Shown here one piece after another: positions 8,445 to 58,005 of a stretch of 64,000 bases of DNA (the first letter of the stretch is position 1; every line of letters starts with the position of its first letter). The position numbers and the translations under genes were made by a program. The notes beneath the pieces were generated by a model. The model did no database searches and was not told the origin of the DNA. It saw only the letters and a program-made list of their open reading frames with translations. The stretch is from Rheinheimera pacifica (GTDB lineage Bacteria; Pseudomonadota; Gammaproteobacteria; Enterobacterales; Alteromonadaceae). Location: NCBI RefSeq assembly GCF_900108485.1, contig NZ_FNXF01000006.1, positions 124,001 to 188,000 on the forward strand. Direction: 5' to 3'.

Positions 8445-8655
8445 ACTAATAGCATGCCGTGACTGAATGAAAAGTGAACCAATCTATTAATAAAGTATTA
8501 ATTACGGGTGAATTTTTCTAACTTAACGGGTTATAAATGTTCGTTTGTAACAGGCAACACAGACGCAGTAGTTTAGTAAGAATAGCAAAGTGAATAGCCA
8601 GCCGTACCGGCTTGTGACTTTTGCTTTCTACAACAGCGAATGCGGAGCACCAGAG
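8445..8655 (+). other. 211-bp gap dividing the exopolysaccharide locus
   Basis: The only sizeable non-coding gap in the locus. It is AT-rich around 8480-8550 and has a TATAAA hexamer at 8532-8537, but no good -35 at standard spacing. The GC-poor sequence and the change from polymer-assembly to export genes suggest a promoter here, but I cannot place it firmly. No terminator hairpin with a T-run is visible. Confidence 0.35.
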
Positions 8656-10053: not shown

Positions 10054-10064
10054 CAGGAAGACAG

Positions 10065-11264: not shown

Positions 11265-11272
11265 GGATCAAG

Positions 11273-11794
11273 ATGTCAAATCGTGTTATTGCCGCCGTAT
11301 TATTCTGTTTGTTTATTGGCTGGCCATTAAGTGCACAAGAACAGTATGTGCTGGGGCCTGGTGATCTTATCGTGATTAAGGTGTATGGGCAGGAAGATCT
11401 GGAGTTGCAAACCCGGCTGACCGATAGCGGCACAATAAACTATCCGTTTCTGGGTAAATTACAGCTGAGTGGCAGAAGCATCAAACAGGTTGAAGCATTA
11501 ATTTATCAGGGCCTTAAAGGCGACTATCTGGTTGAACCTAACGTCTTTGTTGGCATGGTGGAATACCGGCCGTTTTATATTCACGGTGAAGTAAAACAGC
11601 CGGGTGCTTACCCATATCAACCGGGTATGACGGTAAACCAGGCTATTGCGTTGGCCGGTGGCATGACTGAGCGGGCATCCAGAGAGAAAATCCGCATTTC
11701 ACGTGAAGGTGACAAAAACCAGAATGAAAGCGGCAGCCTGAGCAGCCGTATTCTGGCAGGTGATACTATTACTATCGAACAGAGATTTTTCTGA
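11273..11794 (+). CDS. Short polysaccharide export protein (Wza-like OPX, Poly_export/SLBB)
   Basis: Periplasmic export protein of about 173 residues. A signal peptide ends at LSAQE with no lipobox cysteine. The Poly_export domain begins at YVLGPGDLIVIKVYGQEDL and an SLBB-type domain follows (FYIHGEVKQPGAYPYQPGM). It stops about 200 residues short of E. coli Wza and lacks its later domains and C-terminal outer-membrane helix, so it is unlikely to form the outer-membrane channel by itself. Start 11273 is preferred because GAGG lies six bases upstream; ATG 11261 would overlap the barrel gene's stop and is also possible. Confidence 0.87.
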   Translation: MSNRVIAAVLFCLFIGWPLSAQEQYVLGPGDLIVIKVYGQEDLELQTRLTDSGTINYPFLGKLQLSGRSIKQVEALIYQGLKGDYLVEPNVFVGMVEYRPFYIHGEVKQPGAYPYQPGMTVNQAIALAGGMTERASREKIRISREGDKNQNESGSLSSRILAGDTITIEQRFF

Positions 11795-11796
11795 TT

Positions 11797-13959
11797 ATGG
11801 CTGTATATTCGAGTGAAAAACCGCTGGCATCCGGTGAACAATTAGTTGATGTCAGTAAGCTGTTTGGCGTAATTGGCCGTTTTAAATGGCGCATATTAAT
11901 ACTGGCTATTAGCAGTGCGATTTTAGCTGCCAGTATCGCGCAACACATGACACCAATATACCGCTCTACTGCCACCTTGCTGATTGAAGCGCAGCAGGCC
12001 AGAGCAATTAAAATTGAAGAGGTTTATGGTTTTAATTCGGCTCAGCAGGAATATTACCTGACGCAGTTTGAAATTTTGAAATCACGCTCTATTGCAGAAC
12101 GGGTGTTTAATGAGCTGTCGCTGGCAGGGCACCCGGCACTGCAGGGCAAACCCTCATTTAGCAATAAAGCTAAGGCCTATATTAAATCACTGTTGAGCCC
12201 GCCGGCATCGGCATCGGTTGACACTGAACTAAGCAGCGCTTTAACGCATAAGCGCCGGCTGGACAAATTTAGTAGCGGTATTCAAATTGACCCGGTACGG
12301 AAAACCCAACTGGTAAACCTGAGCTATCAGTCGTCTGATCCACGCCTGGCACAGGCTGTGGCCAATGCTATTGGCGAGGCATATATTTCCAGCCAGCTTG
12401 ATGCCAGATTAGGTATAACGCAAAAAGCCAGCAGTTGGCTGGGTGGCCGTATTGGTGAGCTGCGTGAGCGCTTAGAGCAATCAGAAACCCGGCTTGAAGC
12501 CTTTCGTGCACAACATAATCTGGTTGATGTAGAAGGCGTAACAGCGCTGGATGCCCGTGAGCTGGAACGGCTGAACGAAGAGCTGACAGATGCGCGCTCG
12601 AAAAAAGCTAAAGCCGAAGGTTTTTTAGCATTGGTGCGTCAGTTTGATCAGCACGATGTATCGGGCCTGGAAAGCCTGCCTGAAATCACCTCGCACCCGT
12701 CGGTACAAAACGTTAAGCGTGAGGTTATGGCGGTAGAGCGTAAGTATTCTGAACTTAATAAGGTGTACGGGCCTAAACACCCGAAAATGATTGCCGTACA
12801 AGCAGAACTGCTAACGGTAAATAACAGCCTGCGCCAGCAAATAAACCGCCTTATTGAAGGTATCGAAAAAGAAGCGCAAAGCGCTGAAAGACGTTTGTCT
12901 TCGCTGGAGCAGCAATTTAGCCGCACCAAAACAGCGTTTTCCAGCCTGGGTTCGGTTGAATCAGATTACCGCCGTTTACAGCGCGAAGTAGAAACCAATC
13001 AGCTATTGTTTGACAGCTTTTTTGCCCGGCAAAAAGAAACCGAAGTGACCGGCGACTTTGACGCCCCGATCGCCCGTTTTACTGATCGGGCTGTATTACC
13101 GTCAGAGCCGGTTAAGCCGAATAAAAAGCTGATTGTTATGCTGACCTTTATCTCGACCTTGTTGCTTGGCGCCATCATCGCCTTGCTACAGGATATGCTG
13201 AACGATACCGTTAAAAATACTGCTGATATAGAGCAGGCACTGGCCCAATGCGCGCTTGGTTATTTGCCTAAAGGCCTTAAAAAGAAAAACGATCAACAGC
13301 GCAGTCTGGCGTATTTTGATCCGAAACAGCGCCGTTACAGTGAGTCGGTGCGTAATATCCGTACGGCCTTATCATTAATGGCGCTGGATAAACCACTCCA
13401 GGTCATTGAAATTACCTCATCCCAGCCACAGGAAGGTAAAACCACCGTGAGTATCAATCTGGCGTTTGCTTTTGCTGCGCTGGAGCGGGTGTTGTTAATT
13501 GATGCCGATTTGCGCAAACCTTCAGTGGGATCACGGTTTAATTTGCCACTGTACCAAAGTGGTTTAGCCAATATATTATCCCGCACCGCAACACTGGACG
13601 AATGTATTGTTAAAGACGTGCAGGAAGGGGTTGATATAATGCCTGCTGGCGCCATACCATTAAACCCAATGGAGTTGCTGGCCGGTCACGGCTTGCAAAG
13701 CTTGCTGACTGAGCTAAAAGGGCGCTACGACAAAATTATTATTGATACTGCGCCGGTGCAGGCGGTTAGCGATCCATTGCTGGTAGCACCGCACGCCGAT
13801 GCCGTGGTGCTGGTGGTAAAAGCAGATCACACCCGCATTCCGCTGGTACAGCATACGCTGGGGCAATTACATCAGGCACATGCCCGGGTGTATGGCGTTG
13901 TGCTTAATCAGATGAAAATGAATAAAGCCGAGCCTTATTATGCTAACTATGGTGTGTAA
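11797..13959 (+). CDS. Polysaccharide co-polymerase and tyrosine autokinase (Wzc-like BY-kinase)
   Basis: 720-residue inner-membrane protein controlling chain length and export. Order: Wzz domain with a first membrane segment near residue 30, a long periplasmic coiled-coil region (about 200-390, rich in Glu/Lys/Arg), a second membrane segment near 445-465, then the cytoplasmic kinase. Seen in the kinase: Walker A QPQEGKTTVS (about 545), Walker A' VLLIDADLRKP (about 570) and Walker B KIIIDTAPV (about 648). The C-terminal tyrosine cluster is small, EPYYANYGV, with three Tyr. The cognate phosphatase is probably the PHP protein encoded just downstream. Confidence 0.93.
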   Translation: MAVYSSEKPLASGEQLVDVSKLFGVIGRFKWRILILAISSAILAASIAQHMTPIYRSTATLLIEAQQARAIKIEEVYGFNSAQQEYYLTQFEILKSRSIAERVFNELSLAGHPALQGKPSFSNKAKAYIKSLLSPPASASVDTELSSALTHKRRLDKFSSGIQIDPVRKTQLVNLSYQSSDPRLAQAVANAIGEAYISSQLDARLGITQKASSWLGGRIGELRERLEQSETRLEAFRAQHNLVDVEGVTALDARELERLNEELTDARSKKAKAEGFLALVRQFDQHDVSGLESLPEITSHPSVQNVKREVMAVERKYSELNKVYGPKHPKMIAVQAELLTVNNSLRQQINRLIEGIEKEAQSAERRLSSLEQQFSRTKTAFSSLGSVESDYRRLQREVETNQLLFDSFFARQKETEVTGDFDAPIARFTDRAVLPSEPVKPNKKLIVMLTFISTLLLGAIIALLQDMLNDTVKNTADIEQALAQCALGYLPKGLKKKNDQQRSLAYFDPKQRRYSESVRNIRTALSLMALDKPLQVIEITSSQPQEGKTTVSINLAFAFAALERVLLIDADLRKPSVGSRFNLPLYQSGLANILSRTATLDECIVKDVQEGVDIMPAGAIPLNPMELLAGHGLQSLLTELKGRYDKIIIDTAPVQAVSDPLLVAPHADAVVLVVKADHTRIPLVQHTLGQLHQAHARVYGVVLNQMKMNKAEPYYANYGV

Positions 13960-13985
13960 ACCCGTTACCGGCAGGCGGTATGATT

Positions 13986-14729
13986 ATGTTTGATCTGCAT
14001 AACCATATATTGCCCGGCGTTGATGATGGCGCCAAAGATATGGCCGAAGCGCTGGCTTTGCTGCAACTGGCACAGCAGCAGGGCATAAGCCATATGCTGG
14101 CTACCCCGCACCTGCATGCCGGACGTTATAACAACAGTGCAGCCTCGATAACTGAAGCCATAACAGCGCTGCAACAGGCAGCAAGTGCTGCAGGTATTAA
14201 CATAACACTGGCAGCAGCTGCCGAGGTAAGGATCGGTGCGGAAATATTGCCCCTGATAGAACAGCAACAAATGCCTTTTATTGGCCGTTATCAGGGTAAT
14301 AAGGTGTTATTACTGGAGTTGCCGCACAGTCATATTCCGGCAGGTAGCGATAAACTTTTGGCATGGCTGGCACGGCACGATATTACAGTGATGCTGGCGC
14401 ACCCTGAACGAAACCGCGATTTGCTGGCAGCACCAGACAAAATTAAGCCATTTATTAAAGCCGGTTGCCTGTTTCAGTTAACCGCCGCGGCGCTTGACGG
14501 TGATATGGGCGCTGATGTTAAAGCCCTGGCCGGGCAGTGGTTAAAGCAGGGGCTTTATCATGTTATTGCCAGCGATGCTCACTCTGTTAAACGCCGCCCG
14601 CCTAAATTACAGCAGGCATACCAGCACAGTTGCCAAATGGTTGGTGAAGAACAAGCCCGGCAATTATGTATGCTTAACCCGGCGCAATTGGCCGGGCCGG
14701 TGTTTAGCGCCGGTATGCTGCTTAATTAA
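13986..14729 (+). CDS. PHP-domain protein tyrosine phosphatase (CapC/YwqE-like)
   Basis: Predicted manganese-dependent phosphatase that removes phosphate from the neighbouring tyrosine kinase. About 247 residues with the full set of PHP metal motifs: DLHNHILPGVDDGA, TPHLHAGRY, LELPHSHIP, LAHPERNRDL and IASDAHSVKRRPPKL. Such phosphatases replace the low-molecular-weight Wzb phosphatase in many EPS clusters. ATG 13986 sits eight bases after AGGCGG; ATG 13980 is only two bases from it and is less likely. The gene ends three bases from the convergent gene that follows, and no terminator fits between them. Confidence 0.9.
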   Translation: MFDLHNHILPGVDDGAKDMAEALALLQLAQQQGISHMLATPHLHAGRYNNSAASITEAITALQQAASAAGINITLAAAAEVRIGAEILPLIEQQQMPFIGRYQGNKVLLLELPHSHIPAGSDKLLAWLARHDITVMLAHPERNRDLLAAPDKIKPFIKAGCLFQLTAAALDGDMGADVKALAGQWLKQGLYHVIASDAHSVKRRPPKLQQAYQHSCQMVGEEQARQLCMLNPAQLAGPVFSAGMLLN

Positions 14730-14732: not shown

Positions 14733-15956
14733 TCAAAAACACGTTTCCAGGCTTTGCAGCAGGTTGTAGTTATCGTCTGCCAGCCACAGGCTGCGCCATT
14801 TATCAAATGTCAGGCAGGGGTGTGAAGTACCAAGCAATACTATGTCGCCTACCTGAGGCTGCACGGTATTGTCGTAGCGCCAGAAAGCATGCTGATCCAT
14901 GACTTTACTGGTTTCACACTGGCTGAGTTTGTCGCTGAGCAATTGCCCATTACGGTAGATAGCAATGGCCTGGGGCAGGCCGGCGTCAAAGGCAGCATCG
15001 CGTTTACCAAACCCCAGCACTGCCAGCCCCGGCTCTGGCAGGGATTGCACATAAGCCGCCAGCTCAAGCGCGTTTTGTAAGTTTCCGTCTAAGCGGCAGG
15101 CCGTATTACTGCGGGCCAAAACCTGTTGTTGTGCCTGCTGGTAAATACCGAGATCATGGCTGATATAGCAACCCGGACGCAGCACTATCTGCATGGTATC
15201 GGGTAAGGTGGCTTTTTTCAGCTCTGCAGCCACTATGTCATACCAAACCGAGCCGGCGCCGCTGATCAGCGCTCTGGGGTATTGCAGCAGTTGTTGTCTG
15301 AACAGGGCTTTAGCCAGCGCCGCCGCCTGTTGCACAAACTGGCGCACAGTGCGTGCGGTGTCCGTGCTTTTAATGACTCCTTCGTAAAACTCTATGCCTG
15401 CCAGGCTCAGCCCCGGCAACGTTGCCAGCTGTTGTGCCAGTTCAACAGCCTGCTGGTTAGTGCGACAACCGCATCTTCCGCCAGGTACGCCTAACTCTAT
15501 TAACACTGGTAAGCATAGGTTTTCGGCGCTGAAAAAGTCTGACAGTGCGCTGGCGTTATCAATATTGTCGATACAGACATAAATTTCGTTGCCGCTGGCA
15601 AGCAGTGCGGCAATAACCGCCATATTCGCTTTACCCACCAGTTGATTGGCCAGGATCAGCCGCCTGCCACCGGCTTGCACGGCTACCTGCGCCTGATAAG
15701 ACGTTGCCACGGTAATACCCCAGGCCCCTGCAGCCAGTTGCTGCTGAAATAGCCAGGGCGTCATGCTGGTTTTACCATGAGGAGCCAATAGCACTCCGCT
15801 GGTATCGGCAAAGTTTTGCATCCACTGCAGGTTATGCAGCAGCGCACTGTGTTTGAGAATAACAGCCGGCAGGCAGATATCCTGTTGCAACAAGTTTAAA
15901 TGCTGTTGGTCAGCCAGTGGGCTGGCAGACTTTTGCGGTATATTTTGGTACTTCAT
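14733..15956 (-). CDS. PLP-dependent D-serine dehydratase/D-threonine aldolase-like enzyme (fold III)
   Basis: 407 residues. The N-terminal alanine-racemase-type barrel contains the PLP lysine in LLAPHGKTSMTPWL, and the small C-terminal domain ends with GTSHPCLTFDKW. In this family a zinc ion is held by an H-x-C pair in D-serine dehydratases and an H-x-D pair in D-threonine aldolases; the HPC seen here favours deamination or dehydration of a D-hydroxy or other D-amino acid. It is transcribed divergently from the RpiR regulator gene and shares its operator region. RidA, encoded nearby, would remove the reactive enamine/imine such an enzyme releases. Exact substrate unknown. Confidence 0.84.
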   Translation of the reverse strand: MKYQNIPQKSASPLADQQHLNLLQQDICLPAVILKHSALLHNLQWMQNFADTSGVLLAPHGKTSMTPWLFQQQLAAGAWGITVATSYQAQVAVQAGGRRLILANQLVGKANMAVIAALLASGNEIYVCIDNIDNASALSDFFSAENLCLPVLIELGVPGGRCGCRTNQQAVELAQQLATLPGLSLAGIEFYEGVIKSTDTARTVRQFVQQAAALAKALFRQQLLQYPRALISGAGSVWYDIVAAELKKATLPDTMQIVLRPGCYISHDLGIYQQAQQQVLARSNTACRLDGNLQNALELAAYVQSLPEPGLAVLGFGKRDAAFDAGLPQAIAIYRNGQLLSDKLSQCETSKVMDQHAFWRYDNTVQPQVGDIVLLGTSHPCLTFDKWRSLWLADDNYNLLQSLETCF

Positions 15957-16050
15957 AACATTGTGCTCTTGGCTTGTTAATATTTATATCGCTTTAATGT
16001 TGGTAAATTACTGTAATAAAGCCATATTGATATTTACTTTTATGTTGCTT

Positions 16051-16065
16051 TGGTACAAAGTACCT
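16051..16065. promoter_or_regulatory. Candidate RpiR-type operator, site 1 (GGTAC-AAA-GTACC)
   Basis: The core palindrome GGTACAAAGTACC occupies 16052-16064, in the divergent region between the D-amino-acid enzyme and the regulator gene. It has five-base arms and a three-base spacer, and shares the pattern TGKTAC-N3-GTAMCA with three other sites at 16097, 23592 and 23697. Assignment to the local RpiR protein is inference. Confidence 0.6.
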
Positions 16066-16096
16066 TTAAGTTAGGTTTAAATATTACTTTAGCAAA

Positions 16097-16111
16097 GGTT
16101 ACTGAGTAACA
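16097..16111. promoter_or_regulatory. Candidate RpiR-type operator, site 2 (GTTAC-TGA-GTAAC)
   Basis: The perfect palindrome GTTACTGAGTAAC occupies 16098-16110, ending 11 bases before the regulator's start codon. Its position fits autorepression. Centres of sites 1 and 2 are 46 bp apart. Confidence 0.6.
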
Positions 16112-16121
16112 CCATAAGCAA

Positions 16122-16997
16122 ATGGATAAAACGATGAGTTATGAAATAGATGTTCTGTCACGTATCTCAGAGCGCTTTGTCGAAATGAGTGAATCTGAAC
16201 AAAGAGTGGCTCAGGTCATACTGGATAATGTGAAAGCTGCCAGTGAAATGAGCATTGCCAGGCTATCTGAAAGTGCTGGTGTTAGCCAGGCAACGGTCAC
16301 CCGTTTTGCCCGCACGGTAGATTGTAAAGATGTGCGTCAGCTTAAGGTTAAACTGGCGCAATCCTTAGCGGTAGGGCAACGCTTTGTGGAAGAAACGCCC
16401 GATCTGGATGGTATTCAGGGTGTGTACGAAGCCATTAAAAATACGCTGGACTTAAGCCGCAAGTTATTGGTAGAGGCTGATATAAAACTGGCGGTCAGCT
16501 ATTTACAAAATGCGCGGATGATTTTCTGTATTGGTATGGGTGGGGGCTCGTCTATTGGTTCACAGGAACTGCAATACCGCTTGTTCCGCTTTGGCATGCC
16601 GGTATGCAGTTATCAGGATGGTTTATTAACACGTATGGTAGCGGCGGCGGTTGAACCGCAAGATGTTGTTGTGGCTATTTCGTTAACCGGTAACACCGGT
16701 GAGATTATCGACTCAGCCGCTATTGCCCGTCAGTATGGTGCCAGAGTCATTGCTATTACCAAGCCTGGTTCACAACTTGCCGCCAATGCCGACATTGTGC
16801 TGGGTTTGCAGGCGCCGGAAACCGATTTTATCTACAAACCTTCCGCATCCCGTTATGCCATGCTGGCCATTATTGATGTGCTGGCAACCGAAGTGGCCAA
16901 GCTGAATAAACGCAAATCGCGTGACAAATTGCGCCGGGTAAAACTATCGCTCGACAGCCATCGCGGCGGTGATGACCGTCAGCCCCTGGGAGATTAA
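16122..16997 (+). CDS. RpiR/MurR-family transcriptional regulator (HTH plus SIS domain)
   Basis: 291 residues. The N-terminal HTH-6 domain includes ARLSESAGVSQATVTRFART; the C-terminal SIS domain starts near residue 125 (FCIGMGGGSSIGSQELQYR) and has the sugar-phosphate loop ISLTGNTGEI. SIS domains in this family bind phosphorylated sugars or their metabolites. The protein is clearly a paralogue of HexR encoded at 58083-58940, sharing the KLAQSLA linker. Two palindromes lie just upstream of its start, so it probably controls itself, the divergent D-amino-acid enzyme, and the GH20/TonB pair, whose promoter region carries the same palindrome. ATG 16134 is an alternative start. Repressor or activator role is not decided by the sequence. 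Confidence 0.9.
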   Translation: MDKTMSYEIDVLSRISERFVEMSESEQRVAQVILDNVKAASEMSIARLSESAGVSQATVTRFARTVDCKDVRQLKVKLAQSLAVGQRFVEETPDLDGIQGVYEAIKNTLDLSRKLLVEADIKLAVSYLQNARMIFCIGMGGGSSIGSQELQYRLFRFGMPVCSYQDGLLTRMVAAAVEPQDVVVAISLTGNTGEIIDSAAIARQYGARVIAITKPGSQLAANADIVLGLQAPETDFIYKPSASRYAMLAIIDVLATEVAKLNKRKSRDKLRRVKLSLDSHRGGDDRQPLGD

Positions 16998-17003
16998 TTA
17001 GCA

Positions 17004-17396
17004 ATGACTATAAAGCGTTATGGTGTGGATGAAAGTACCGGCACCGGCGGGCAGAAACTGCCGTTTGCCAAAGCGGTGGAGGCAGCAGGCTGGTTGTATG
17101 TGTCGGGCCAGACACCGATGCGTAATGGCGAGGTAGTGGAGGGCGGCATTGTCGAGCAATCTGAGCTGGCGCTGCAAAATTGCCTGGATATTATGCAGCA
17201 GGCGGGCTACAGCCTTTGTGATGTGGTGCATGTAAAGGTGTACCTTACTGATGCACGGTATTTCAGCAGTTTTAATCAGGTGTTTCGCCGGGTGTTCAGC
17301 GAGGCGCCACCGGCACGGATCTGTGCGGTGGCCGATTTGGTGGTTGACTGCAAAGTAGAAGTTGACCTGACATGCTATCGCGCTAACAGAGCCTGA
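17004..17396 (+). CDS. RidA-family enamine/imine deaminase
   Basis: 130-residue YjgF/YER057c/UK114-family protein. Hydrolyses reactive 2-aminoacrylate-type enamines or imines released by PLP enzymes. Seen: the N-terminal YVSGQTPMRNGEV segment and the C-terminal PPARICAVADLVVDCKVEVD block, whose Arg is the conserved substrate-binding residue. It starts six bases after the regulator gene, with GGGAGA as ribosome site, and is one base from the symporter gene, so the four genes 16122-20357 form an operon. Its presence supports D-amino-acid breakdown by the neighbouring PLP enzyme. Confidence 0.93.
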   Translation: MTIKRYGVDESTGTGGQKLPFAKAVEAAGWLYVSGQTPMRNGEVVEGGIVEQSELALQNCLDIMQQAGYSLCDVVHVKVYLTDARYFSSFNQVFRRVFSEAPPARICAVADLVVDCKVEVDLTCYRANRA

Positions 17397-17397
17397 G

Positions 17398-18885
17398 ATG
17401 AATAGCAGCCTGTTTTTGCTGGGGTTTGGCCTGTATCTGTTGCTGATGATAACTATAAGTTATCTGGTTTCACGCAAACAGCATAGCAGCGAAGACTTTT
17501 TGCTGGCAGGGCGCAATGTGTCTGGTGGTCTGACATTTGGCACCACTGTCGCCACTATGATTGGTACCGGCACCAGTATGGGGGCAGTAGGCTATGCCTA
17601 TCAGCATGGCTGGGGCGGTATGTTGTATGGAGTCGGTGGTGCAGTTGGCATTTTATTAACAGCCTGGTTATTTGCTCCGCTCAGGCGTATGCGTTTTATG
17701 ACCATGAGTGAAGAGCTGAGTTATTACGCCGGGGCCAACTTTGGGGTTAAACACTGCAGTGCGGTAATGATTTTTCTGGCGTCACTGGGCTGGATGGGCG
17801 CACATATTATTGGTGGTGCGCTGTATTTGTCCTGGGCAACAGGGCTGGAACTTTTTTATAGCAAGCTATTAATTGCTATGGCATTTACCTTGTATGTGAT
17901 GATAGGCGGTTACCGCGCTGTGGTGTGGACAGACAGCCTGATGGCATTGATATTATTTGCCGGCTTTTTGCTGATGAGCTATGCCGCTGTGCAGGCTGCA
18001 GGTGGTGTTATGGCGCTGGGTACAGCTGTTGCCTCGGCCAGGCAACAGGGAATGATGCAGCAGTTGCCGCTGTTGCCGGCAATTTCACTGGCCGCTGTTG
18101 TTACTGTGGGGGTGCTGGCAACACCTTCGTTTCGTCAGCGCATCTATGCTGCCCGCAGTATTAGCACTGTGCGGCGATCTTTTATTTTCTCCGGTGCACT
18201 GTATCTGGTTTTTGCCGCACTGCCGGCGGTGATTGGTATAGCGGCATTTTCACTGGCACCACAACTTGAGAATCACCAGTTTGCTTTTACTACTGTAGCC
18301 GTGCTGGTATTACCCGCGTCTCTGGCGATGCTGGTGCTGCTCGCCGGGCTTTCTGCCACGCTGTCGTCGGCCAGCTCTGATGCTATTGCGGCAGTATCGG
18401 TGCTGATCCGTGATTTTTATCAGGCAATCACCGGTGCTATGCCGCCGCCGGATAAAGCCATTTTATATGCCCGTTTATCGGTGCTGCTGGTGTCTGGTGT
18501 GGCCTTGCTACTGGCGTTGTTATCAGATGATTTGATCCGCTATATCAGCAATATGATTGCGACACTGATGTCCGGCATGTTTGTGGTGGCAATACTGGGC
18601 CGGTTCTGGCCGCGGCTTAACTGGCAGGGGGCCTTAGCCGCTATGCTGGGAGCTGTTATCACGTCATTGCTGTTGATCAGCCAGTCAGAATGGCAGGCTT
18701 ACTGGGGCAACCCCTGTTTACCGGCCGTCGCCTGTGCCATGTCGGCAGCTATAGCTGTAAGCCTGCTAACTCCCCGGTGCCGTATCAGCCGGGCTGAGGC
18801 GCTGAAACTTATCAGTGCGCAACGTGAAGAATATCAAACTGTCACTGAAACATTCCCGCAGGGATCGCTGCCTGAGCGGCAATAA
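17398..18885 (+). CDS. Sodium:solute symporter (SSS family)
   Basis: 495-residue inner-membrane transporter with about thirteen hydrophobic segments. Seen: the family N-terminus LLMITISYLVSRKQHSSEDF, the glycine-rich GRNVSGG followed by TTVATMIGTGTSMGAVGYAY, and GYRAVVWTDSLMALI, which matches the SSS signature region. It is predicted to bring the island's substrate, perhaps an amino acid, peptide or sugar-peptide conjugate, across the inner membrane with sodium. Substrate cannot be read from sequence; the operon context with RidA and an M81 enzyme favours an amino-acid derivative. Confidence 0.9.
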   Translation: MNSSLFLLGFGLYLLLMITISYLVSRKQHSSEDFLLAGRNVSGGLTFGTTVATMIGTGTSMGAVGYAYQHGWGGMLYGVGGAVGILLTAWLFAPLRRMRFMTMSEELSYYAGANFGVKHCSAVMIFLASLGWMGAHIIGGALYLSWATGLELFYSKLLIAMAFTLYVMIGGYRAVVWTDSLMALILFAGFLLMSYAAVQAAGGVMALGTAVASARQQGMMQQLPLLPAISLAAVVTVGVLATPSFRQRIYAARSISTVRRSFIFSGALYLVFAALPAVIGIAAFSLAPQLENHQFAFTTVAVLVLPASLAMLVLLAGLSATLSSASSDAIAAVSVLIRDFYQAITGAMPPPDKAILYARLSVLLVSGVALLLALLSDDLIRYISNMIATLMSGMFVVAILGRFWPRLNWQGALAAMLGAVITSLLLISQSEWQAYWGNPCLPAVACAMSAAIAVSLLTPRCRISRAEALKLISAQREEYQTVTETFPQGSLPERQ

Positions 18886-18899
18886 ATCATCGAGGAACT

Positions 18900-20357
18900 A
18901 TGCGTATTTTTACGGCGTCTCTGGCCACTGAAACCAATACTTTCTCTCCAATGTATACTGATGTACACAGCTTTTATCAAAGTTTTTATGCGGCGCCAGG
19001 CCAGCATCCGGCCACACCTACGCTGTGCAGTGCACCGTTAATTGCGTGTCGTGAATATGCTCAGGCACATGCCGGTACTGAAATAATAGAGGGTAGCTGT
19101 GCCTGGGCAGAGCCTGGTGGTTTACTTAACCGCCAGTCGTACGAGCTACTGCGGGATGAAATATTGCTGCAACTGCGCGAGGCGATGCCGGTGCAGGCGG
19201 TGGTGCTGGGTTTGCATGGTGCTATGGTGGCACAGGGATATGACGATTGCGAAGGAGATTTACTACAACGTGTCCGTGCTATTGCCGGGCCGGAGGTGAT
19301 TATAGGCGCTACATTGGATCCGCATAGCCATTTAACGCCAGAGCGGCTGCAGGCAGCTAATTTGTTAATTGCATTCAAAGAGTTTCCACATCTTGATTTT
19401 ATGCAGTGCGCGCGTGAGCTGGTACAACTTGCTGTCGCCGCAGAGCAGCGGCAGATAACACCCTGCATGAGCAGTTTTGACTGCCGGATGATAGATGTGT
19501 TGCCTACCAGCCATGAACCGATGAAGTCGTTTATTGCTAAGGTGCGGCAGGTGGAGCAACAGCCTGGCGTGTTGTCTGTTTCGGTGATCCACGGCTTTAT
19601 GGCGGGCGATGTGCCGGATATGGGGTCGCGCTTACTGGTGATCACCGATAACCAGCCACAACTTGGCCAGCAATTGGCACGACAGCTTGGTCTGGAGCTG
19701 TTTTCATTTCGTGGCAAAACCTTGCCGGAGTTTCATAGTATTGATGCAGCACTGGATTTAGCCCAGCAATGCAGCGAGGGTACTACAGTGCTGGCAGATG
19801 TCTGGGACAACCCGGGCGGTGGTGTTGCCGGAGACGGCACCCTGATATTGCAGCAGATCATTGCACGCGGGCTAACAGGGGTTGCGGTAGGCACCATTTG
19901 GGATCCTATGGCCGTAAAGCTGTGTTTTGCCGCAGGAGAGGGCGCGGTAATAACCCTGCGTTTTGGTGGTAAAAGCTGTGCCACAGCCGGGGCGCCAATA
20001 GACAAAGAAGTTAAGGTTGTCAGGCTAAAGGCAAATGCACAGCAGCAGTTTGCTGATAGCAATGTGCCTATGGGTGATTGCGCCTTGATTGCCTTTGACG
20101 ATATTGAGGTCATTTTAAACAGCAACCGTTGCCAGTCATTTGACCCGAGTTTATTCCAAGCCCTGGGTATAGCGCCGCAGCAGTGCAGGTTGTTACTGGT
20201 AAAATCCACCAATCATTTTTACCAGGGCTTTGCGCCGCTGGCCGCGCAAATTTTGTATGTGGATGCTGGCGCCCCATACCCCAGCGATCCTAAGCGTAAT
20301 GGCTATCGCAAACTGTGCCGGCCACTGTGGCCCATTACAGAGCTGCCGTTTGACTAG
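18900..20357 (+). CDS. M81-family metallohydrolase (MlrC/microcystinase C-like)
   Basis: 485 residues, the usual length of this family. Seen: the N-terminal IFTASLATETNTFSP, the metal-binding GATLDPHSHLTPERL, VIHGFMAGDVPDMGSR, and DVWDNPGGGVAGDGT in the C-terminal MlrC domain. The founding member cleaves linear microcystin breakdown peptides containing D-amino acids and the Adda residue; most homologues have unknown substrates. No signal peptide is visible, so it acts in the cytoplasm on what the symporter brings in. GAGGAA precedes the ATG. It ends 16 bases from the convergent GH20 gene. Confidence 0.9.
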   Translation: MRIFTASLATETNTFSPMYTDVHSFYQSFYAAPGQHPATPTLCSAPLIACREYAQAHAGTEIIEGSCAWAEPGGLLNRQSYELLRDEILLQLREAMPVQAVVLGLHGAMVAQGYDDCEGDLLQRVRAIAGPEVIIGATLDPHSHLTPERLQAANLLIAFKEFPHLDFMQCARELVQLAVAAEQRQITPCMSSFDCRMIDVLPTSHEPMKSFIAKVRQVEQQPGVLSVSVIHGFMAGDVPDMGSRLLVITDNQPQLGQQLARQLGLELFSFRGKTLPEFHSIDAALDLAQQCSEGTTVLADVWDNPGGGVAGDGTLILQQIIARGLTGVAVGTIWDPMAVKLCFAAGEGAVITLRFGGKSCATAGAPIDKEVKVVRLKANAQQQFADSNVPMGDCALIAFDDIEVILNSNRCQSFDPSLFQALGIAPQQCRLLLVKSTNHFYQGFAPLAAQILYVDAGAPYPSDPKRNGYRKLCRPLWPITELPFD

Positions 20358-20373
20358 GCTTATATTTACTAAG

Positions 20374-23300
20374 CTATAGCTGTATCCGCTCAATACAGCC
20401 GCACTGCTGTATCGTGACATAGAGTGTGCTGTTATCCGGGCTCAGGCTGACATTAGTTGGCAGAGCATGGTTCAGGCGGTATTCCTGCCGGATACGGCCT
20501 TCGTTATCCAGCTTTACCACTGTACCTTTACCGTAGCGGGCAATATACAAACTGCCTTTACTATCAAAACGCATACCATCAAGGCCAAAATCACTGAATT
20601 GGGCAAACAGGTGTTTATCGCTCAGCGAGTTATCGGCATTGATGCGAAAACGCCATACTTTGCGCTGGATACTTTCATTAATGTATAAAAATTGCTGATC
20701 GGGGCTTACGGCAATACCGTTGGTTGTGCCCATATTGCTATATAGCAACTGGCTGGAGCCGTCAGTATCTATGCGCCAAAGCTGCCCGCTGCTATTGGCC
20801 CAGTCAGGATCGCTGGCAAAGATAACGCCGCTTTGCATAATGGCCAGATCATTAGGCTGATGCATGGCTTTATTGTGCGCGTATACCTCAAGCTTACCTT
20901 GTGCGTAACGCAGAATATTATGGCCGGTGTAATCGGCAATAAACATGGCTCCGCTATATAAGCTACCACTTGGGCCAAACACGATACCGTTACCTGTGCT
21001 GCCCTGTGGCAGGGTTAGATATAAACTGGCTTGGCCGTCCGGTGTCACTTTGCCAATGGTTCCGCCATCAGTAGCGGTGCTGTTAATAGCGCTGTCGTGG
21101 CCAAAGTTAACTGCATAAAGGTTACCGAGGCTGTCAACTGCAGGGCCCTCAGCCGCGGCGCTAAAGGTGTTCGCCGGTACCCAGACCTGGCTGTGCGGGG
21201 CATAGTCAAACAACTGCTGCAATGGGCGGTGCAGCGCAATAATCATTTCCTGCGAAATAGTACCAGCCTGTTGTAGTTGTCGGGCTATTTGCTGTCGCAC
21301 AACATTCTCTAGCGGTGTTTGTGAGCTAATACTGTTAAGCAGCAACAGCCCCGACTGACACAGTGCACTGATCTGCTGCAGCTCAGGTATATAAGGCTTT
21401 AGCTTTGTATACTGTGGCGCCGCGGCAGCTGTTATAACAGTAGCGGCCGCAGCCTGCCATTGTTGTAATTGCTGAATGAGCCAGGTTGTATCTAAAGCTT
21501 GCTGTTGTTTCAGCCAGCGTTGTAATACCTGCGAAAACTGATGCAGCTGTGGGTTTTCGGCGGGCAAAAAATCTACTAACTGATTTAGCGCAGCCGCTTT
21601 ATGGTAAAGGCCGGCAGCTGATTTCTGGTGCAACCGGTGGTAATAATGTGCGGGTTCCAATATCTGTGCCAGATGCTCAAGGCTGCCGGCATAATCAGCG
21701 GCTAAAAAAGTAAAGCCCGCGCGCTGTTGCTGTATATGCTGCAGGCTGCCTTCTGCTGTTAACTGCTGGCTAATACGTTGCATGCGCTGGTGCAGGCTGG
21801 CTTCATCGCGGATTACTGCGCTTGACCATAAACGTTCAGCTACAGCAAAGCCATTGGGCCAGAGCCGGATATCAATATTATCCGGTGTCACCAGCTCGGC
21901 CCATAAGGTAATTTCACCACCCAGAATGTTTGCGCGCATAGCGTCGTTAACATGGATCGGTTGCAGGCTAAAGGGCAGAGCGGTTGCCGCGCTTTGCTGT
22001 AATGCCAATGCCTGGCCGTTAACCAGATAGGGCGCATTACCCGTGACAAGCTGCCCCGACAGCGTTGCGCCTAACTGCAGCTGAGCACTTAGCGGCCCCA
22101 TCCAGCTGTCAACAGTAAAGGTGAGTGTGTTGGCATTCAGAACAAGATCATTGAGCATTACTGCTTTGCGCCCACTAAATTCAATTGCCCCTTTAACAGC
22201 GCCATCATTAAAGCTAAGCAGCAGTAACTTACCGGAAATAGCATTGCCGCGCAGGCGGTCGAAGCTAAACTGCCAGGCAGACCATTGTTGTAGCTTGGTC
22301 AGATCTGGTGCTGCTGTTGCTTGCGGTAGCGGATCATTGCGATAGTGATAACCGGCAAACTGAGGCTGATCAAGATAATAGCCGGTTGATAATATCGCTT
22401 TATGCCCGGCGGCTGCAGCTTGATACAAAGATTCGGTGCCACGCCAGGACTGAATCAGCACGGAGTTTGGTACATTGCTGTCCAGCACTTCATCCCAGCC
22501 AATCATATTGCGGCCCAGTTGCTGCAAAATCTGCTGTAAACGGCGGTTGAAATAAGCCTGCAGTGCCGGCGCACCATCAAGCTGTTGTTGCTGCATAAAG
22601 GCCACAATATGCGGCGTAGCCAGCCAGTGCTCGCTTAGCACCTCATCACCACCAATATGCAGATAAGGATCGGGAAATACATCGGCGACTTCAGCCAGCA
22701 ACTGGCGCAAAAACGGATAAAGTTGCTCATTTGTCGGGTCCAGCACTGCCGGATGCACGCCCCAATGCTGCTCTGGCTCCGTGGCGCCGGGCTGGCTCAT
22801 AAACTCAGGGTAGGCTGCTCCAAGTGCAGTAGTATGGCCGGGTAAGTCAATTTCGGGTACCACCCTGATACCGCGCTCTGCTGCATAAGTTACCAGTTGT
22901 TTTAGCTCTGTCTGAGTATAAAAGCCGTCAGCGCCGCCAATTTGTTGCAGTTTAGGGAAGTGCTTTGATTCAAAGCGCCAGCCCTGATCGTCGGTTAAAT
23001 GCAGGTGTAAAACATTAAGTTTGGCTGTCGCCATAATATCTATCTGTCGTTTTAACACCGCCAGCGGTAAAAAGCGCCGCGCCGGGTCCAGCAACAAACC
23101 ACGCCAGCTAAAACGCGGCTGATCTTTAATACTAACTGCGGCAATTTTGCCGTTATCAGCCAGCTGCAGCAGCGTTTCCAAGCCACGCACAATACCGGTT
23201 TCTGTTGCCGCACTGAGCATAATCTCTGTTTTAGTGACACGCAGATAATACTGCTCTGCCATATCCGGCTGAGGGACGGCGCCAGTTGCCGCAGGTAGGC

Positions 23301-23574
23301 CGGTAAGTTGTAGTTGCAAATTTGCAGCGGGCAAAGGCGGAATGGCAAAACCGGCTGTTTGGCTTAAACGGGCAGTAAAACGTTCAGCTGCTGCCTGTAG
23401 CATCGGGTTATCTGGTGGCACTTCTATTGTTAGCCCCAGCCTGAGATCAAAGTACCCTTCAGCTTGCTCAATCTCGGCGGGATAGGGCAATAATGCCACC
23501 GCAGCAAGGCTATTTTTAGCACACAACGGCATACTGCTTAACAACAACAGGGCATAGCAACAGATTAAACGCAT
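20374..23574 (-). CDS. Secreted GH20 beta-N-acetylhexosaminidase fused to an SMP-30/gluconolactonase-like propeller
   Basis: 1066 residues from ATG 23574. Order: signal peptide (MRLICCYALLLLSSMPLCA), GH20b domain (about 25-150), GH20 barrel with catalytic pair HIGGDEV (Asp310-Glu311), an inserted strand-rich segment of about 115 residues (420-535), the barrel end (GGEITLWAELV, AVAERLW), a helical linker, then a six-bladed SMP-30-like domain (about 796-1066; QPNDLAIMQSG, NGIAVSPDQQF, GLDGMRFDSKGSLY). GH20 removes terminal GlcNAc or GalNAc. The longer frame begins at a TTG (23619), with an in-frame ATG at 23607, but those starts would put the palindrome 23592-23606 inside the gene. Transcribed divergently from the TonB receptor. 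Confidence 0.88.
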   Translation of the reverse strand: MRLICCYALLLLSSMPLCAKNSLAAVALLPYPAEIEQAEGYFDLRLGLTIEVPPDNPMLQAAAERFTARLSQTAGFAIPPLPAANLQLQLTGLPAATGAVPQPDMAEQYYLRVTKTEIMLSAATETGIVRGLETLLQLADNGKIAAVSIKDQPRFSWRGLLLDPARRFLPLAVLKRQIDIMATAKLNVLHLHLTDDQGWRFESKHFPKLQQIGGADGFYTQTELKQLVTYAAERGIRVVPEIDLPGHTTALGAAYPEFMSQPGATEPEQHWGVHPAVLDPTNEQLYPFLRQLLAEVADVFPDPYLHIGGDEVLSEHWLATPHIVAFMQQQQLDGAPALQAYFNRRLQQILQQLGRNMIGWDEVLDSNVPNSVLIQSWRGTESLYQAAAAGHKAILSTGYYLDQPQFAGYHYRNDPLPQATAAPDLTKLQQWSAWQFSFDRLRGNAISGKLLLLSFNDGAVKGAIEFSGRKAVMLNDLVLNANTLTFTVDSWMGPLSAQLQLGATLSGQLVTGNAPYLVNGQALALQQSAATALPFSLQPIHVNDAMRANILGGEITLWAELVTPDNIDIRLWPNGFAVAERLWSSAVIRDEASLHQRMQRISQQLTAEGSLQHIQQQRAGFTFLAADYAGSLEHLAQILEPAHYYHRLHQKSAAGLYHKAAALNQLVDFLPAENPQLHQFSQVLQRWLKQQQALDTTWLIQQLQQWQAAAATVITAAAAPQYTKLKPYIPELQQISALCQSGLLLLNSISSQTPLENVVRQQIARQLQQAGTISQEMIIALHRPLQQLFDYAPHSQVWVPANTFSAAAEGPAVDSLGNLYAVNFGHDSAINSTATDGGTIGKVTPDGQASLYLTLPQGSTGNGIVFGPSGSLYSGAMFIADYTGHNILRYAQGKLEVYAHNKAMHQPNDLAIMQSGVIFASDPDWANSSGQLWRIDTDGSSQLLYSNMGTTNGIAVSPDQQFLYINESIQRKVWRFRINADNSLSDKHLFAQFSDFGLDGMRFDSKGSLYIARYGKGTVVKLDNEGRIRQEYRLNHALPTNVSLSPDNSTLYVTIQQCGCIERIQL

Positions 23575-23591
23575 AACACAGATCACTTTAT

Positions 23592-23606
23592 TGTTACTTG
23601 GTAACA
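23592..23606. promoter_or_regulatory. Candidate RpiR-type operator, site 3 (TGTTAC-TTG-GTAACA)
   Basis: A perfect 15-bp palindrome with six-base arms and a three-base spacer, 17 bases upstream of the preferred GH20 start. It has the same geometry as the HexR site (TGTAAT-N3-ATTACA), but with different arms. Confidence 0.62.
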
Positions 23607-23696
23607 TATTAATAAGCAATAAAGAAGTGCTTGTCTAGAATTCAATGCTATATAAGGTAGTTTTTTCATCAAATTATGTTTACTTTTTAATCTTCG

Positions 23697-23711
23697 TGGT
23701 ACAAAGTAACA
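23697..23711. promoter_or_regulatory. Candidate RpiR-type operator, site 4 (TGGTAC-AAA-GTAACA)
   Basis: A near-perfect palindrome about 135 bp upstream of the TonB receptor start. One half is as in site 1 and the other as in site 3, which is what joins the two spellings into one motif. The rest of the 23620-23844 region is AT-rich, with no promoter I can place with confidence. Confidence 0.6.
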
Positions 23712-23844: not shown

Positions 23845-26800
23845 ATGTCTGAATTACTGAGCGATAATTACAAGTATAGTAGCAAACAAAACCGGTTAAG
23901 CCTGGCTATTACTGCCGCTTTGCTGGGTATAAGCCCATGCTGGCTTGCTGCGCAGGCTTTGCCTGAAAATGACAGCGGTGTCATTGCTGCACAGGCAACT
24001 GAGCCGGTAGAGGTTATTGAAGTAAAAGGCATGCGCAGCAGCCTTAATAACGCCCAGAACCTGAAGCGTTATGCAGATACCGTTAAAGACGTTATCACTG
24101 CCACTGATATAGGTGCACTACCGGATAAATCAGTTACTGAAGCCTTACAACGTGTGCCCGGTGTGACTATTGAGCGCTTTGCTTCTTCTGACGATCCAAA
24201 GCACTATGCCGATGAAGGTACCGGCGTGCTGGTGCGTGGCCTGGATCGTGTGCGCTCTGAAGTCAACGGCCGTGGTGCTTTTAGTGCCAACCCATGGGGG
24301 GGGCTGAGCTATGAAGACTTCCCGGCAGAATTGCTCGGCTCAGTAGAAGTGGTAAAAAACCAGACTGCAGATCTGATCTCCGGTGGTATTGCCGGTACGG
24401 TTAATCTGATCACCCGCAAGCCGTTTGATTCTGATAAACAGTTATTATCTGTTAATGCCAAAGCGAACTATGGCGATTTTCGCGAAGAGGTTACGCCGTC
24501 GTTCTCTGCGCTGTTTTCTGATAGCTGGGAAACCAAAGCCGGTAAATTTGGTTTTCTGATTGCCGGTTCTAAATCGGAATATAAATCACGTGGTGATGGT
24601 ATTGGTTTAGGTAATTTCCATTCCCGCGGTGACTCTTTTATCCCAACCACTGATGAGTGGGGCGGTATTACCGGTGTTGATCCTGATTCACCGGTTGATG
24701 GCCCGGCACTGCCTGGGCAACCTGCTGGCAGTGTCTGGCACGTACCGGTAGCTATTCACATGAGTACGGCCGAAAATGATCGCAAGCGCACCGGCTTTAC
24801 CACCTCTTTGCAGTGGGCGAATACCGATAACACCATAGTGGCCACCTTAGAGCACATTAATTCTAAAGCCTCGTTAGAGTGGAATGAGCGGCAAATTGGC
24901 CAGGCTGCGCAAGGTTTCAGAGGTTTTATGGGTTCGTCGCAAAACTGGCGGGACGATGCAGCCAACGGCCATCCGTTAACAGTAGAAAACGGTTATGTCA
25001 CTTCAGGTGTTGCGCTTGGTGTTAGCCCTGAAACGCCGTTTTTCTATCGCAGCCGCTGGAACTACAATGAAAATACCGTTGAAGACACCTCATTTAACCT
25101 GAAGTTAAAACCGACAGACCGCTTAGCACTGAGTTTTGATTATCAGCGCATAGACTCTGAGAAAGTGGTACACAACTACAGTATGTCAGGCCAGACGCGC
25201 GGTAATCATGTGCATGTGGTATCACCCTATTTCCTGGACATGCGCGGTTCCCGCCCAACTGTTGAGTTTCTCAGCGATAATATTCTGACCCCGGGCTGGT
25301 CGCCGAATCAGGATTGGAACGGGCCGGTGCCGAATTTATTTCTGGGCAGTGGTATGGAGCAGGAAGAGCACAATACCGCCAAAGCGAACAGCTTTAAGTT
25401 TGACCTCAGTTATGAGCTGGATGGTGTTTTTACGGTTATTAAAACCGGGGCTTATTACACCGATAAAGACTTAACCGTGCGCGATACAGCTTATGAAGGC
25501 TGGTCTGCTATTGGTACTCCCTGGGATATGAATGATCGTAATGCCGCGGCTGCCGTGAACCGGCCCGAGTTGTTTGAGCGGGTGGATTTTTCAGATTACT
25601 ACAATGGTAATGTGCTGATAGGTAATGTTAATAACTTTTTGTTCCCGCGGATGGATCTGGTGAGAAACTATGCTAACTCATTACGCCAGGGTTGCCAGGA
25701 GGGCTGGCACAACGCTACGCTAAGTGCGGCTAATAACGGCGTTTGCACCGGTACCTATGTGCCTTATACCGACAAACCTAACCGCGTTGAAGGGCCATTT
25801 GCTGCGCATAACATCAGTTCATCGAATGAAAAGCGTACCGAGTTTTATCTGCGCGGTGATTTCGAGTTTGCGGAGCTGGATATTCCGGTAAAGGGTAACA
25901 TTGGTTTGCGCTACGTTAGTTACGAGTTGGAATCTACCGGCGCCTTTGTACAGCCGTTAACCAGTAAACGGGGTGAGCCCGGCACATCGCTTAACAATGT
26001 AATGCAGCAAGCAGAGTACCGGCGCTATTATGATCTTGCGTCCGGTGAATCGCAGTTGAGTACGGTAAAAGGCACCGATTACGACACCGTATTACCGAGC
26101 TTAAACCTGAACTTTGGTATAACCGATGACGTAGTCGTGCGCTTTGGTGCGTCAAAAGGTTTGTATTACCCAAGCCTGGTAGATGCCCGTAATATCAGCC
26201 TGCTCGATTTAGACTACACCCGTCGCCTGCAAACCCCGGGACAAGATCAGGATGAAGTTAATAACCCGGTGGTGGGGCTGGATGATATCGAAGTAACAGC
26301 ATTGGCGGGCAACCCGTATCTGGAGCCGGAAGAGTCAATTAATCTGGATTTAACGGCAGAATGGTATTTTGCACCGGCCGGATTTTTGAATCTGGGCGTC
26401 TTCCACAAAAAGCTGGATAACATTATCCGCAACCGGCAATTTGATCTTGATATTGCCTACAACGGCCAAAGTTACGATGTATCGGCTTATGGCCCGGCTA
26501 ACACCGGCTCAGGCTCTATCCGCGGCGTTGAATTTTCGTACTCGCAGTTCTATGACATGTTGCCAGGCGCATGGAGCGGTTTGGGTTTACAGTTTAACTA
26601 CACCTATATCGACCAGAGTGGCCTGGAAGATCCTAACTCTGTGTCAGAGGGAACGTTGGGCTTTGATGAAAATGGTAACCGCATAGCAGACAACCGTAAT
26701 ACCTTCCGTGTATTTGGTGGTTTGCCGCTGCAAGGCTATTCCGATCAGAATATGAACATCGTTGGTATGTACGAATATAACGACATTTCATTCCGGCTGG

Positions 26801-27063
26801 CTTATACCTGGCGCTCTGAGTACCTGCTGACGCTGCGTGAATCTGAAGAGTATGTGCCAGCCTATGCCAAAGCATCCGGCATGATGGACGCCAGCTTGTA
26901 CTACAGCATTAACGAGAACTGGAAAATTGGTATTGAAGGCAGTAACTTGCTGAAAACTGAAACTAAAACCCAGTATCAAATGAATCAGGCGGGGGATAGA
27001 ACAGATGCACTGAGCTTTACCACTGATCGTCGTTATGCGCTAAGCGTGCGGGCTGTTTTTTAA
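23845..27063 (+). CDS. TonB-dependent outer-membrane receptor (Xanthomonas/Caulobacter-type)
   Basis: 1072 residues. An extended signal peptide covers about the first 38 residues, followed by a TonB-box-like VEVIEVKGMR (about 56-65) and the plug domain with DIGALPDKSVTEALQRVPGV and GTVNLITRKPF. The long C-terminal part is a 22-strand barrel ending in an aromatic residue (SVRAVF). Members of this subfamily import oligosaccharides and other large carbon sources. Divergent to the GH20 gene and sharing a candidate operator region, it is the likely outer-membrane entry for the island's substrate, perhaps an N-acetylhexosamine-containing glycan or glycopeptide. Confidence 0.92.
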   Translation: MSELLSDNYKYSSKQNRLSLAITAALLGISPCWLAAQALPENDSGVIAAQATEPVEVIEVKGMRSSLNNAQNLKRYADTVKDVITATDIGALPDKSVTEALQRVPGVTIERFASSDDPKHYADEGTGVLVRGLDRVRSEVNGRGAFSANPWGGLSYEDFPAELLGSVEVVKNQTADLISGGIAGTVNLITRKPFDSDKQLLSVNAKANYGDFREEVTPSFSALFSDSWETKAGKFGFLIAGSKSEYKSRGDGIGLGNFHSRGDSFIPTTDEWGGITGVDPDSPVDGPALPGQPAGSVWHVPVAIHMSTAENDRKRTGFTTSLQWANTDNTIVATLEHINSKASLEWNERQIGQAAQGFRGFMGSSQNWRDDAANGHPLTVENGYVTSGVALGVSPETPFFYRSRWNYNENTVEDTSFNLKLKPTDRLALSFDYQRIDSEKVVHNYSMSGQTRGNHVHVVSPYFLDMRGSRPTVEFLSDNILTPGWSPNQDWNGPVPNLFLGSGMEQEEHNTAKANSFKFDLSYELDGVFTVIKTGAYYTDKDLTVRDTAYEGWSAIGTPWDMNDRNAAAAVNRPELFERVDFSDYYNGNVLIGNVNNFLFPRMDLVRNYANSLRQGCQEGWHNATLSAANNGVCTGTYVPYTDKPNRVEGPFAAHNISSSNEKRTEFYLRGDFEFAELDIPVKGNIGLRYVSYELESTGAFVQPLTSKRGEPGTSLNNVMQQAEYRRYYDLASGESQLSTVKGTDYDTVLPSLNLNFGITDDVVVRFGASKGLYYPSLVDARNISLLDLDYTRRLQTPGQDQDEVNNPVVGLDDIEVTALAGNPYLEPEESINLDLTAEWYFAPAGFLNLGVFHKKLDNIIRNRQFDLDIAYNGQSYDVSAYGPANTGSGSIRGVEFSYSQFYDMLPGAWSGLGLQFNYTYIDQSGLEDPNSVSEGTLGFDENGNRIADNRNTFRVFGGLPLQGYSDQNMNIVGMYEYNDISFRLAYTWRSEYLLTLRESEEYVPAYAKASGMMDASLYYSINENWKIGIEGSNLLKTETKTQYQMNQAGDRTDALSFTTDRRYALSVRAVF

Positions 27064-57977: not shown

Positions 57978-58005
57978 GTAATAGCTTGCTGTTAGTTTAA
58001 TGTAA
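57978..58005 (-). promoter_or_regulatory. Predicted pykA promoter
   Basis: On the minus strand TTACAT (-35, 58000-58005) and TATTAC (-10, 57978-57983) are 16 bases apart; the -35 overlaps the HexR site at 58001-58015. Confidence 0.45.

Follow-up and report, generated by a model that had tools for sequence, protein, structure and literature searches.

The closest described counterpart of the locus examined here comes from Pseudoalteromonas prydzensis ACAM 620, whose ong cluster handles C1-oxidized chitin in the form of 2-acetamido-2-deoxygluconic acid (GlcNAc1A) (PMC9537276). The genes named in that report include ongC, for the deaminase of the deacetylated acid (GlcN1A), ongR, ongD, for a RidA protein, ongIT, ongA and ongOT (PMC9537276). 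By gene deletion and quantitative reverse-transcription PCR, OngR was shown in 2022 to repress ongOT-1 and ongCRBD, with repression relieved by GlcNAc1A, and the same assay showed no OngR control of ongIT-kdgK-ongA (PMC9537276). The main text of that report gives no palindrome, footprint, binding site or electrophoretic mobility shift assay for OngR. Our subject is a window of Rheinheimera pacifica DNA, by which we mean the whole 64,000-nucleotide stretch that was analyzed (contig NZ_FNXF01000006.1, positions 124,001 to 188,000, forward strand), in which a gene for a MurR/RpiR repressor lies in a catabolic island marked by 15-bp palindromes. We consider it very likely that these palindromes are OngR operators and that the island represents, in Rheinheimera, the ong cluster that serves C1-oxidized chitin.

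A preliminary description of this DNA had reported four palindromes, at 16051, 16097, 23592 and 23697, occurring only in two divergent intergenic regions. Scanning with the local consensus TGKTAC-N3-GTAMCA (15 bp) recovers all four at these positions, far above chance, together with a fifth that had been overlooked, at 15946 over the start codon of ongC. The five sites form two 105-bp pairs (15946/16051 and 23592/23697) plus the site at 16097:

15946..15960, minus strand: operator O1, TGTTATGAAGTACCA on the minus strand (listed as TGGTACTTCATAACA at 15946), 1 mismatch, spanning the ATG of ongC
16051..16065, plus strand: operator O2, TGGTACAAAGTACCT, 1 mismatch, 105 bp from O1
16097..16111, plus strand: operator O3, GGTTACTGAGTAACA, 1 mismatch, 46 bp after O2 and immediately upstream of ongR
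23592..23606, plus strand: operator O4, TGTTACTTGGTAACA, 0 mismatches, 18 bp away from the start codon (ATG) of ongA (GH20), counted to its first base
23697..23711, plus strand: operator O5, TGGTACAAAGTAACA, 0 mismatches, 105 bp from O4

With up to two mismatches allowed, the window contains 23 matches versus 7.3 in dinucleotide shuffles. With at most one, the 4.46-Mb genome contains 34 matching places, five in the island and 29 elsewhere; a reversed control motif matches 30 places, so that outside the island the motif does not exceed background. At this genome rate 0.003 sites are expected in the two intergenic regions (432 bp), which makes four or more sites improbable by chance (P = 5e-12), and none of 5000 single-base shuffles of these regions reached the observed five. 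The claimed restriction to the two divergent regions holds nearly: 27 of the 29 non-island places, which include position 54058 of the window, lie inside open reading frames, one lies between convergent genes and one, a weak match, is 216 bp from a start. No convincing extra sites that would point to a wider regulon were found in the whole genome at this threshold, and no exact match to the broader form TGnTA-N5-TAnCA occurs in the stretches fetched around the kdgK homologue and the lytic polysaccharide monooxygenase (LPMO) gene. That the palindromes are RNA hairpins or terminators, and not sites for a protein, is scarcely credible; O2 is indeed flagged as terminator-like, with a stem of 5 pairs and a loop of 3, but that stem is short, all the sites are located at gene starts or upstream of them, the arm sequence is fixed within each clade and the second region has no terminator-like site.

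The genes that these regions separate were assigned by domain content, alignment and gene order:

14733..15956, minus strand: ongC, DSD1/D-threonine-aldolase-like pyridoxal phosphate enzyme, predicted GlcN1A deaminase (Pfam Ala_racemase_N and D-ser_dehydrat; synteny)
16134..16997, plus strand: ongR, MurR/RpiR repressor (HTH_6 and SIS; alignment)
17004..17396, plus strand: ongD, RidA-family protein (Pfam/NCBIfam)
17398..18885, plus strand: ongIT, sodium:solute symporter (Pfam/NCBIfam)
18900..20357, plus strand: mlrC-like gene, M81 zinc hydrolase where ongB is expected, predicted GlcNAc1A deacetylase (Pfam, NCBIfam, locus comparison)
20374..23574, minus strand: ongA, beta-N-acetylhexosaminidase of family GH20 with a fused SMP-30/gluconolactonase domain (Pfam)
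23845..27063, plus strand: ongOT, TonB-dependent receptor (Pfam/NCBIfam)

The reading frame of ongR opens at 16122, and the start common to its relatives (MSYEID) is at 16134. As in P. prydzensis, the RpiR gene has as its neighbors, by domains and synteny, ongC, the RidA gene ongD, the symporter gene ongIT, the GH20 gene ongA and a TonB receptor gene, so that apart from MlrC the island is the published ong gene set minus kdgK and ongB. It differs from the P. prydzensis cluster in carrying mlrC for ongB, in the fusion of ongA to SMP-30 and in the placement of kdgK outside the cluster, where a homologue is found at G000 C33:115789 (39%); the same genome encodes an AA10 LPMO (G000 C32:156148, E=2e-44). 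The SMP-30 domain is C-terminal in OngA and is a plausible opener of the 1,5-lactone made by LPMOs; the fusion is also present in locus L136 and is missing from L071 and L101. D-amino-acid catabolism, the view taken in the preliminary description, was rejected as the role of the island: the counterpart genes in P. prydzensis degrade GlcNAc1A (PMC9537276), and the oxidized-chitin pathway resembles D-amino-acid catabolism. The regulator, encoded within the cluster with HTH_6 and SIS domains, is part of a tree of 100 regulators that also includes HexR, and its best NCBIfam model is the HexR subfamily, at 207.6 bits and thus below the cut-off of 296. Its earlier designation as an RpiR-family paralogue of HexR stands as to family, with 39% identity to HexR, yet it is no unknown regulator and corresponds to OngR, whose genetics date from 2022 (PMC9537276). 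An exopolysaccharide or capsule export cluster (8590-14729; sugar transferase, beta-barrel porin, polysaccharide export, Wzz/tyrosine kinase, CpsB/CapC) adjoins the island.

Conservation of the palindromes was followed in 100 loci, made up of the best 80 named loci by regulator alignment and 20 further loci; all are related by descent, and the counts are accordingly not independent of one another. Judging from the named loci closest to it, the window falls in the Rheinheimera/Arsukibacterium group. Matches to TGnTA-N5-TAnCA concentrate upstream of cluster genes (165 in 65.8 kb) and are rare in other intergenic DNA (7 in 222 kb) and in coding DNA (30 in 1.70 Mb), and 88 of the 100 loci have at least one site. 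Among 360 permutations of the half-site, scored in the best 80 loci, TGKTAC ranks first by exact sites (40, with a mean of 0.84 and a runner-up of 26 that is itself a near copy) and by one-mismatch sites (95, with a mean of 14.8). Among 31 genomes of the genus, ongR is present in 11, and the exact O4/O5 pair, 105 bp apart, occurs in the same 11 and in none of the 20 that lack ongR; since the pair is inside the island, this is conservation with the island and not independent co-occurrence. Within the loci that carry mlrC in place of ongB (mlrC-type loci), O1 was found in 16 of 19, and the O2-O3 distance is 46 bp in 15 of 16, O3 being unmatched in the other. The palindromes are kept alongside the regulator well beyond the genus. 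One genome, G050 (L170, L171), encodes two OngR-like regulators, one in an ong cluster and the other beside a TonB receptor gene, with palindromes near both.

The palindromes could in principle belong to another regulator, such as HexR or a local activator, with ongR a mere neighbor, and the window itself offers a comparison. It encodes HexR at 58110-58940, 42 kb from ongR and with 39% identity to OngR, and HexR shares the 15-bp geometry. However, the HexR-type sites, TGTAATTTAATTACA, at 58001 and 59100, flank hexR on both sides and have different arms, and these are the only two places in the window that match TGTAAT-N3-ATTACA with at most one mismatch. This bears out the view that the island's sites keep a HexR-like geometry with other arms. 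A TGKTAC site (at most one mismatch) is present in 15 of 18 OngR-type loci versus 0 of 12 loci of paralogues with 36-41% identity, presumed to be HexR, and genomes of the genus that have a paralogue at the HexR level and lack ongR have no site pair. With arms that also vary with the recognition helix of OngR, assignment to a different regulator appears very unlikely to us.

The consensus TGKTAC-N3-GTAMCA proves to be only the local form of a palindrome family, TGnTA(C/G/A)-N3. Arms are mostly TGGTAC or TGTTAC in Rheinheimera, Alkalimonas, Zobellella and Enterobacteriaceae, TGATAG or TGTTAG in Vibrionaceae, and TGTTAA or TGTTAC in Pseudoalteromonas-type loci. Counting half-sites outside the ongC start, and classifying regulators by the residue that follows the helix Ser and by a later Phe, we find that position 6 of the half-site is C for Gln-Phe regulators (87 of 88) and mostly G for Glu-Phe regulators (77 of 104). 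Phylogeny confounds the comparison, and because the tree allows a single change, the link between helix and operator is a correlation only. The proposal that the sites are operators of the local RpiR protein and place both divergent regions under joint control is supported by sequence comparison, in which the half-site shifts with the recognition helix. In Vibrionaceae loci, for example L088 and L101, CRP-like sequences (of TGTG..-N6-TCACT type, by eye) lie near the OngR sites; none was seen by eye in the window.

The arrangement of the sites is as distinctive as their sequence. Among 90 pairs of sites in the same region, 57 are 105-108 bp apart, 8 are 32-33 bp apart and 11 are 151 bp apart, the last class being O1-O3 of Rheinheimera and kin. 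Of the 16 loci where both O1 and O2 were found, 15 have them 105 bp apart and one has them 106 bp apart (three Alkalimonas loci of the 19, in which the first site was not found, are left out), and the O4-O5 distance is 105 bp in 15 of 18 loci and 106-107 bp in three, the contig ending before this point in the 19th. In Rheinheimera and kin the DNA between the sites falls to 47% (O1-O2) and 34% (O4-O5) identity, and this constancy of length over diverged DNA argues that both phase and distance are constrained. The spacing is 105 bp in Zobellella, where the partner has one mismatch, and 107-108 bp in Vibrionaceae; in Enterobacteriaceae the only partner of the ongC-start site is a weak one (2 mismatches), seen 106 bp away in three loci. 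A further conserved element precedes the right-hand site of each pair:

16033..16042, plus strand: conserved element TTTACTTTTA, starting 18 bp before O2, possible -35 region
23679..23689, plus strand: conserved element TTTACTTTTTA, starting 18 bp before O5, possible -35 region

This element, TTTACTTTT, also occurs, at a comparable offset, in Alkalimonas and in several Pseudoalteromonas-type ongOT promoters, and we take it to be a putative part of the rightward promoter.

On these observations we propose that the sites, TGnTAC-N3-GTAnCA (15 bp), would be bound by OngR dimers. Of the paired sites in each divergent region, one would lie over or just upstream of the leftward start (ongC or ongA), and the other, at a distance of exactly 105 bp, would cover the putative promoter of the rightward genes (ongR-ongD-ongIT-mlrC or ongOT). 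Occupation of both sites, possibly by a dimer of dimers that loops out about ten helical turns, would repress both directions, and repression would end when the SIS domain binds a pathway intermediate, which may be GlcNAc1A, GlcN1A, 2-keto-3-deoxygluconate (KDG) or its 6-phosphate (KDPG). With 10.5 bp to the helical turn, 105 bp makes ten turns, and for this reason our preferred, though still hypothetical, mechanism is a loop that an OngR tetramer would hold together. The same operators might instead act without a loop, each site of a pair working separately by promoter occlusion and the 105 bp being an inherited by-product of a layout that combines a leftward start with a rightward promoter. 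We regard this as a serious possibility, somewhat short of even: each site could plausibly act sterically by itself, tandem pairs at 32-33 bp serve other lineages, and looping by an RpiR protein is only a proposal in PMC12713135. A mere by-product of layout is nevertheless difficult to reconcile with the occurrence of exactly the same spacing, 105 bp, in both regions of a single genome, with its constancy while the intervening DNA falls to 34-47% identity, and with its retention at 105 bp in Zobellella and 107-108 bp in Vibrionaceae.

Published regulation provides a separate comparison for the operator assignment. Eight loci (L162-L169) are of Pseudoalteromonas type, the genus being inferred from gene order and from L166, whose OngB scores 916 bits against P. 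prydzensis OngB and is a close relative, the OngB proteins of L162, L165 and L169 scoring 572-583 (four of the eight loci compared). P. prydzensis itself was not found among these four. All eight have a palindrome before ongOT or ongC, several with a pair 32-33 bp apart, and none has a palindrome before ongIT, which fits the reported control by OngR of ongC and ongOT and not of ongIT-kdgK-ongA. L166 itself has one exact palindrome and an imperfect copy 32 bp away before ongC, and none before ongIT.

Several observations weigh against reading the sites as OngR operators of this architecture. In five of the Pseudoalteromonas-type loci (L162-L164, L167, L168) the sites lie before ongOT with none directly before ongC, though ongCRBD is reported to be a separate operon repressed by OngR, and ongA, reported not to be OngR-regulated in P. 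prydzensis, carries an operator in the window. Exact matches to TGnTA-N5-TAnCA are missing from 12 of the 100 loci, and three Alkalimonas loci lack the ongC-start site O1; this site partly overlaps coding sequence, and its conservation may to some extent reflect the protein. The recognition-helix pattern has exceptions, with C at position 6 in 14 of 104 half-sites of Glu-Phe regulators and A or T in those of two Gln-Leu regulators, and in the tree of 100 regulators it may rest on one change, which makes it correlation and not proof. The TTTACTTTT element is missing from those loci of Zobellella and Enterobacteriaceae that were inspected, and because a sigma-70 consensus scan gave no promoter match in either divergent region, the promoter positions are placed by that element only.

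The exchange of one enzyme distinguishes the island further. Other lineages encode OngB between or next to ongR and ongD; among the best 80 loci, 59 have OngB, 19 have MlrC, none has both and two have neither, and the mlrC-type loci come from Rheinheimera, Arsukibacterium, Alkalimonas and close metagenome-assembled genomes. No match to ongB was found in the source genome at E<=1e-5. When OngB was sought in 23 genomes, the 16 of mlrC type had no full-length match (two gave short weak matches only), all four positive-control genomes matched at E<1e-160, and the remaining three were without ongR. Genus g75 holds both cluster types, with OngR at 95-96% identity in the mlrC type (L070-L072, L075-L077, L224) and 46-47% in the ongB type (L175, L176), which suggests horizontal exchange. 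A strong MlrC match is present in 22 of 398 genomes of the phylum, the source genome included. Loci were fetched for 14 of the other 21, namely 8 of the 14 at 56-60% identity and 6 of the 7 at 48% or less; L219 alone is of the same class, the others coming from other classes of the phylum. In all eight at 56-60% a gene for an OngR-like RpiR protein lies no more than about 9 kb away, six of them with RidA and/or DSD genes (L212 and L216 having RpiR only) and two with kdgK, so that the same MlrC subfamily accompanies RpiR, and mostly also RidA or DSD genes, in other classes. The six at 48% or less have no RpiR gene, and one (L219) has an OngB homologue. The gammaproteobacterial motif occurs in none of these 14 loci.

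The hydrolase of the window belongs to the same M81 family as the microcystinase MlrC (PDB 7ylq, PMC9982164; E=8e-113). The zinc ligands of the latter, E39, D167, H169 and H191 (the PH.D histidine, printed as H191 and also as H196 in PMC9982164), are kept in 28 of 28 subfamily members and correspond to E11, D140, H142 and H164 here. It differs from the microcystinase in scoring 392 bits versus a cut-off of 999, in the general base E70, which is Leu in 28 of 28 members, and in the substrate residues W59 and F67, which are A and T in the window protein and likewise lost in all 28 (residues per PMC9982164). Hydrolases of this kind, with a TPTLC motif and Leu at the general-base position, are found in the mlrC-type loci L064-L082 and in L210-L217. 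The subfamily probably deacetylates GlcNAc1A or a similar N-acetyl-amino sugar acid, a link for which we found no precedent in the literature searched, a body that excludes most subscription papers and supplements. If this is true, the MlrC enzyme would be a new type of carbohydrate de-N-acetylase, unrelated to OngB.

Taken together, the regulatory idea of the preliminary description was essentially right, though its regulator and pathway correspond to known ones. No OngR operator was found in the literature searched, again with most subscription papers and supplements outside it, and as far as that literature goes, the operator family, the paired spacing and the exchange of mlrC for ongB are new, as is, probably, the inclusion of ongA in OngR control here. 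A more ambitious synthesis, in which OngR is a looping repressor with pairs about ten turns apart and an operator alphabet that shifts with one helix residue across gammaproteobacteria, joined to a swap of OngB for M81/MlrC in Rheinheimera, Arsukibacterium and Alkalimonas, is offered tentatively, its chances being in our estimation only slightly less than even. The marine chitin-oxidation pathway that OngR represses was described only recently, and the operator family makes the OngR regulon predictable in many genera; the spacing classes of 105-108 bp and 32-33 bp represent a direct way to test DNA looping by RpiR repressors.

Compared with other RpiR systems, OngR resembles the KDPG-responsive HexR in its family and in a 15-bp palindrome with an N3 center, and differs in its arms (TGGTAC/TGTTAC versus TGTAAT) and in serving one local pathway, HexR being a regulator of central carbon metabolism. 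Published HexR sites include a predicted one in Vibrio parahaemolyticus, TGTAATTAAATTACA (PMC11906056), and the Pseudomonas consensus TTGT-N7-8-ACAA (PMC5489143). A change of arms with the 15-bp geometry retained already has a precedent in the RpiR regulator RccR of Pseudomonas, whose 15-bp site is TGTAGT/ACTACA; RccR differs in also binding a 28-bp version with a longer linker and in controlling pyruvate metabolism, the glyoxylate shunt and gluconeogenesis (PMC5489143). NanR of V. vulnificus and MurR of E. coli are, like OngR, RpiR repressors with paired sites, and tetramers have been described for both; the two NanR regions span about 107 bp, and bridging of two sites by a tetramer has been proposed for MurR (PMC12713135). 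Their paired sites differ from those of OngR in being adjacent (17 bp apart for MurR) and in serving other pathways (PMC12713135). Relative to the P. prydzensis cluster, finally, the Rheinheimera island differs in giving ongA an operator of its own and in setting its pairs 105 bp apart versus 32-33 bp.

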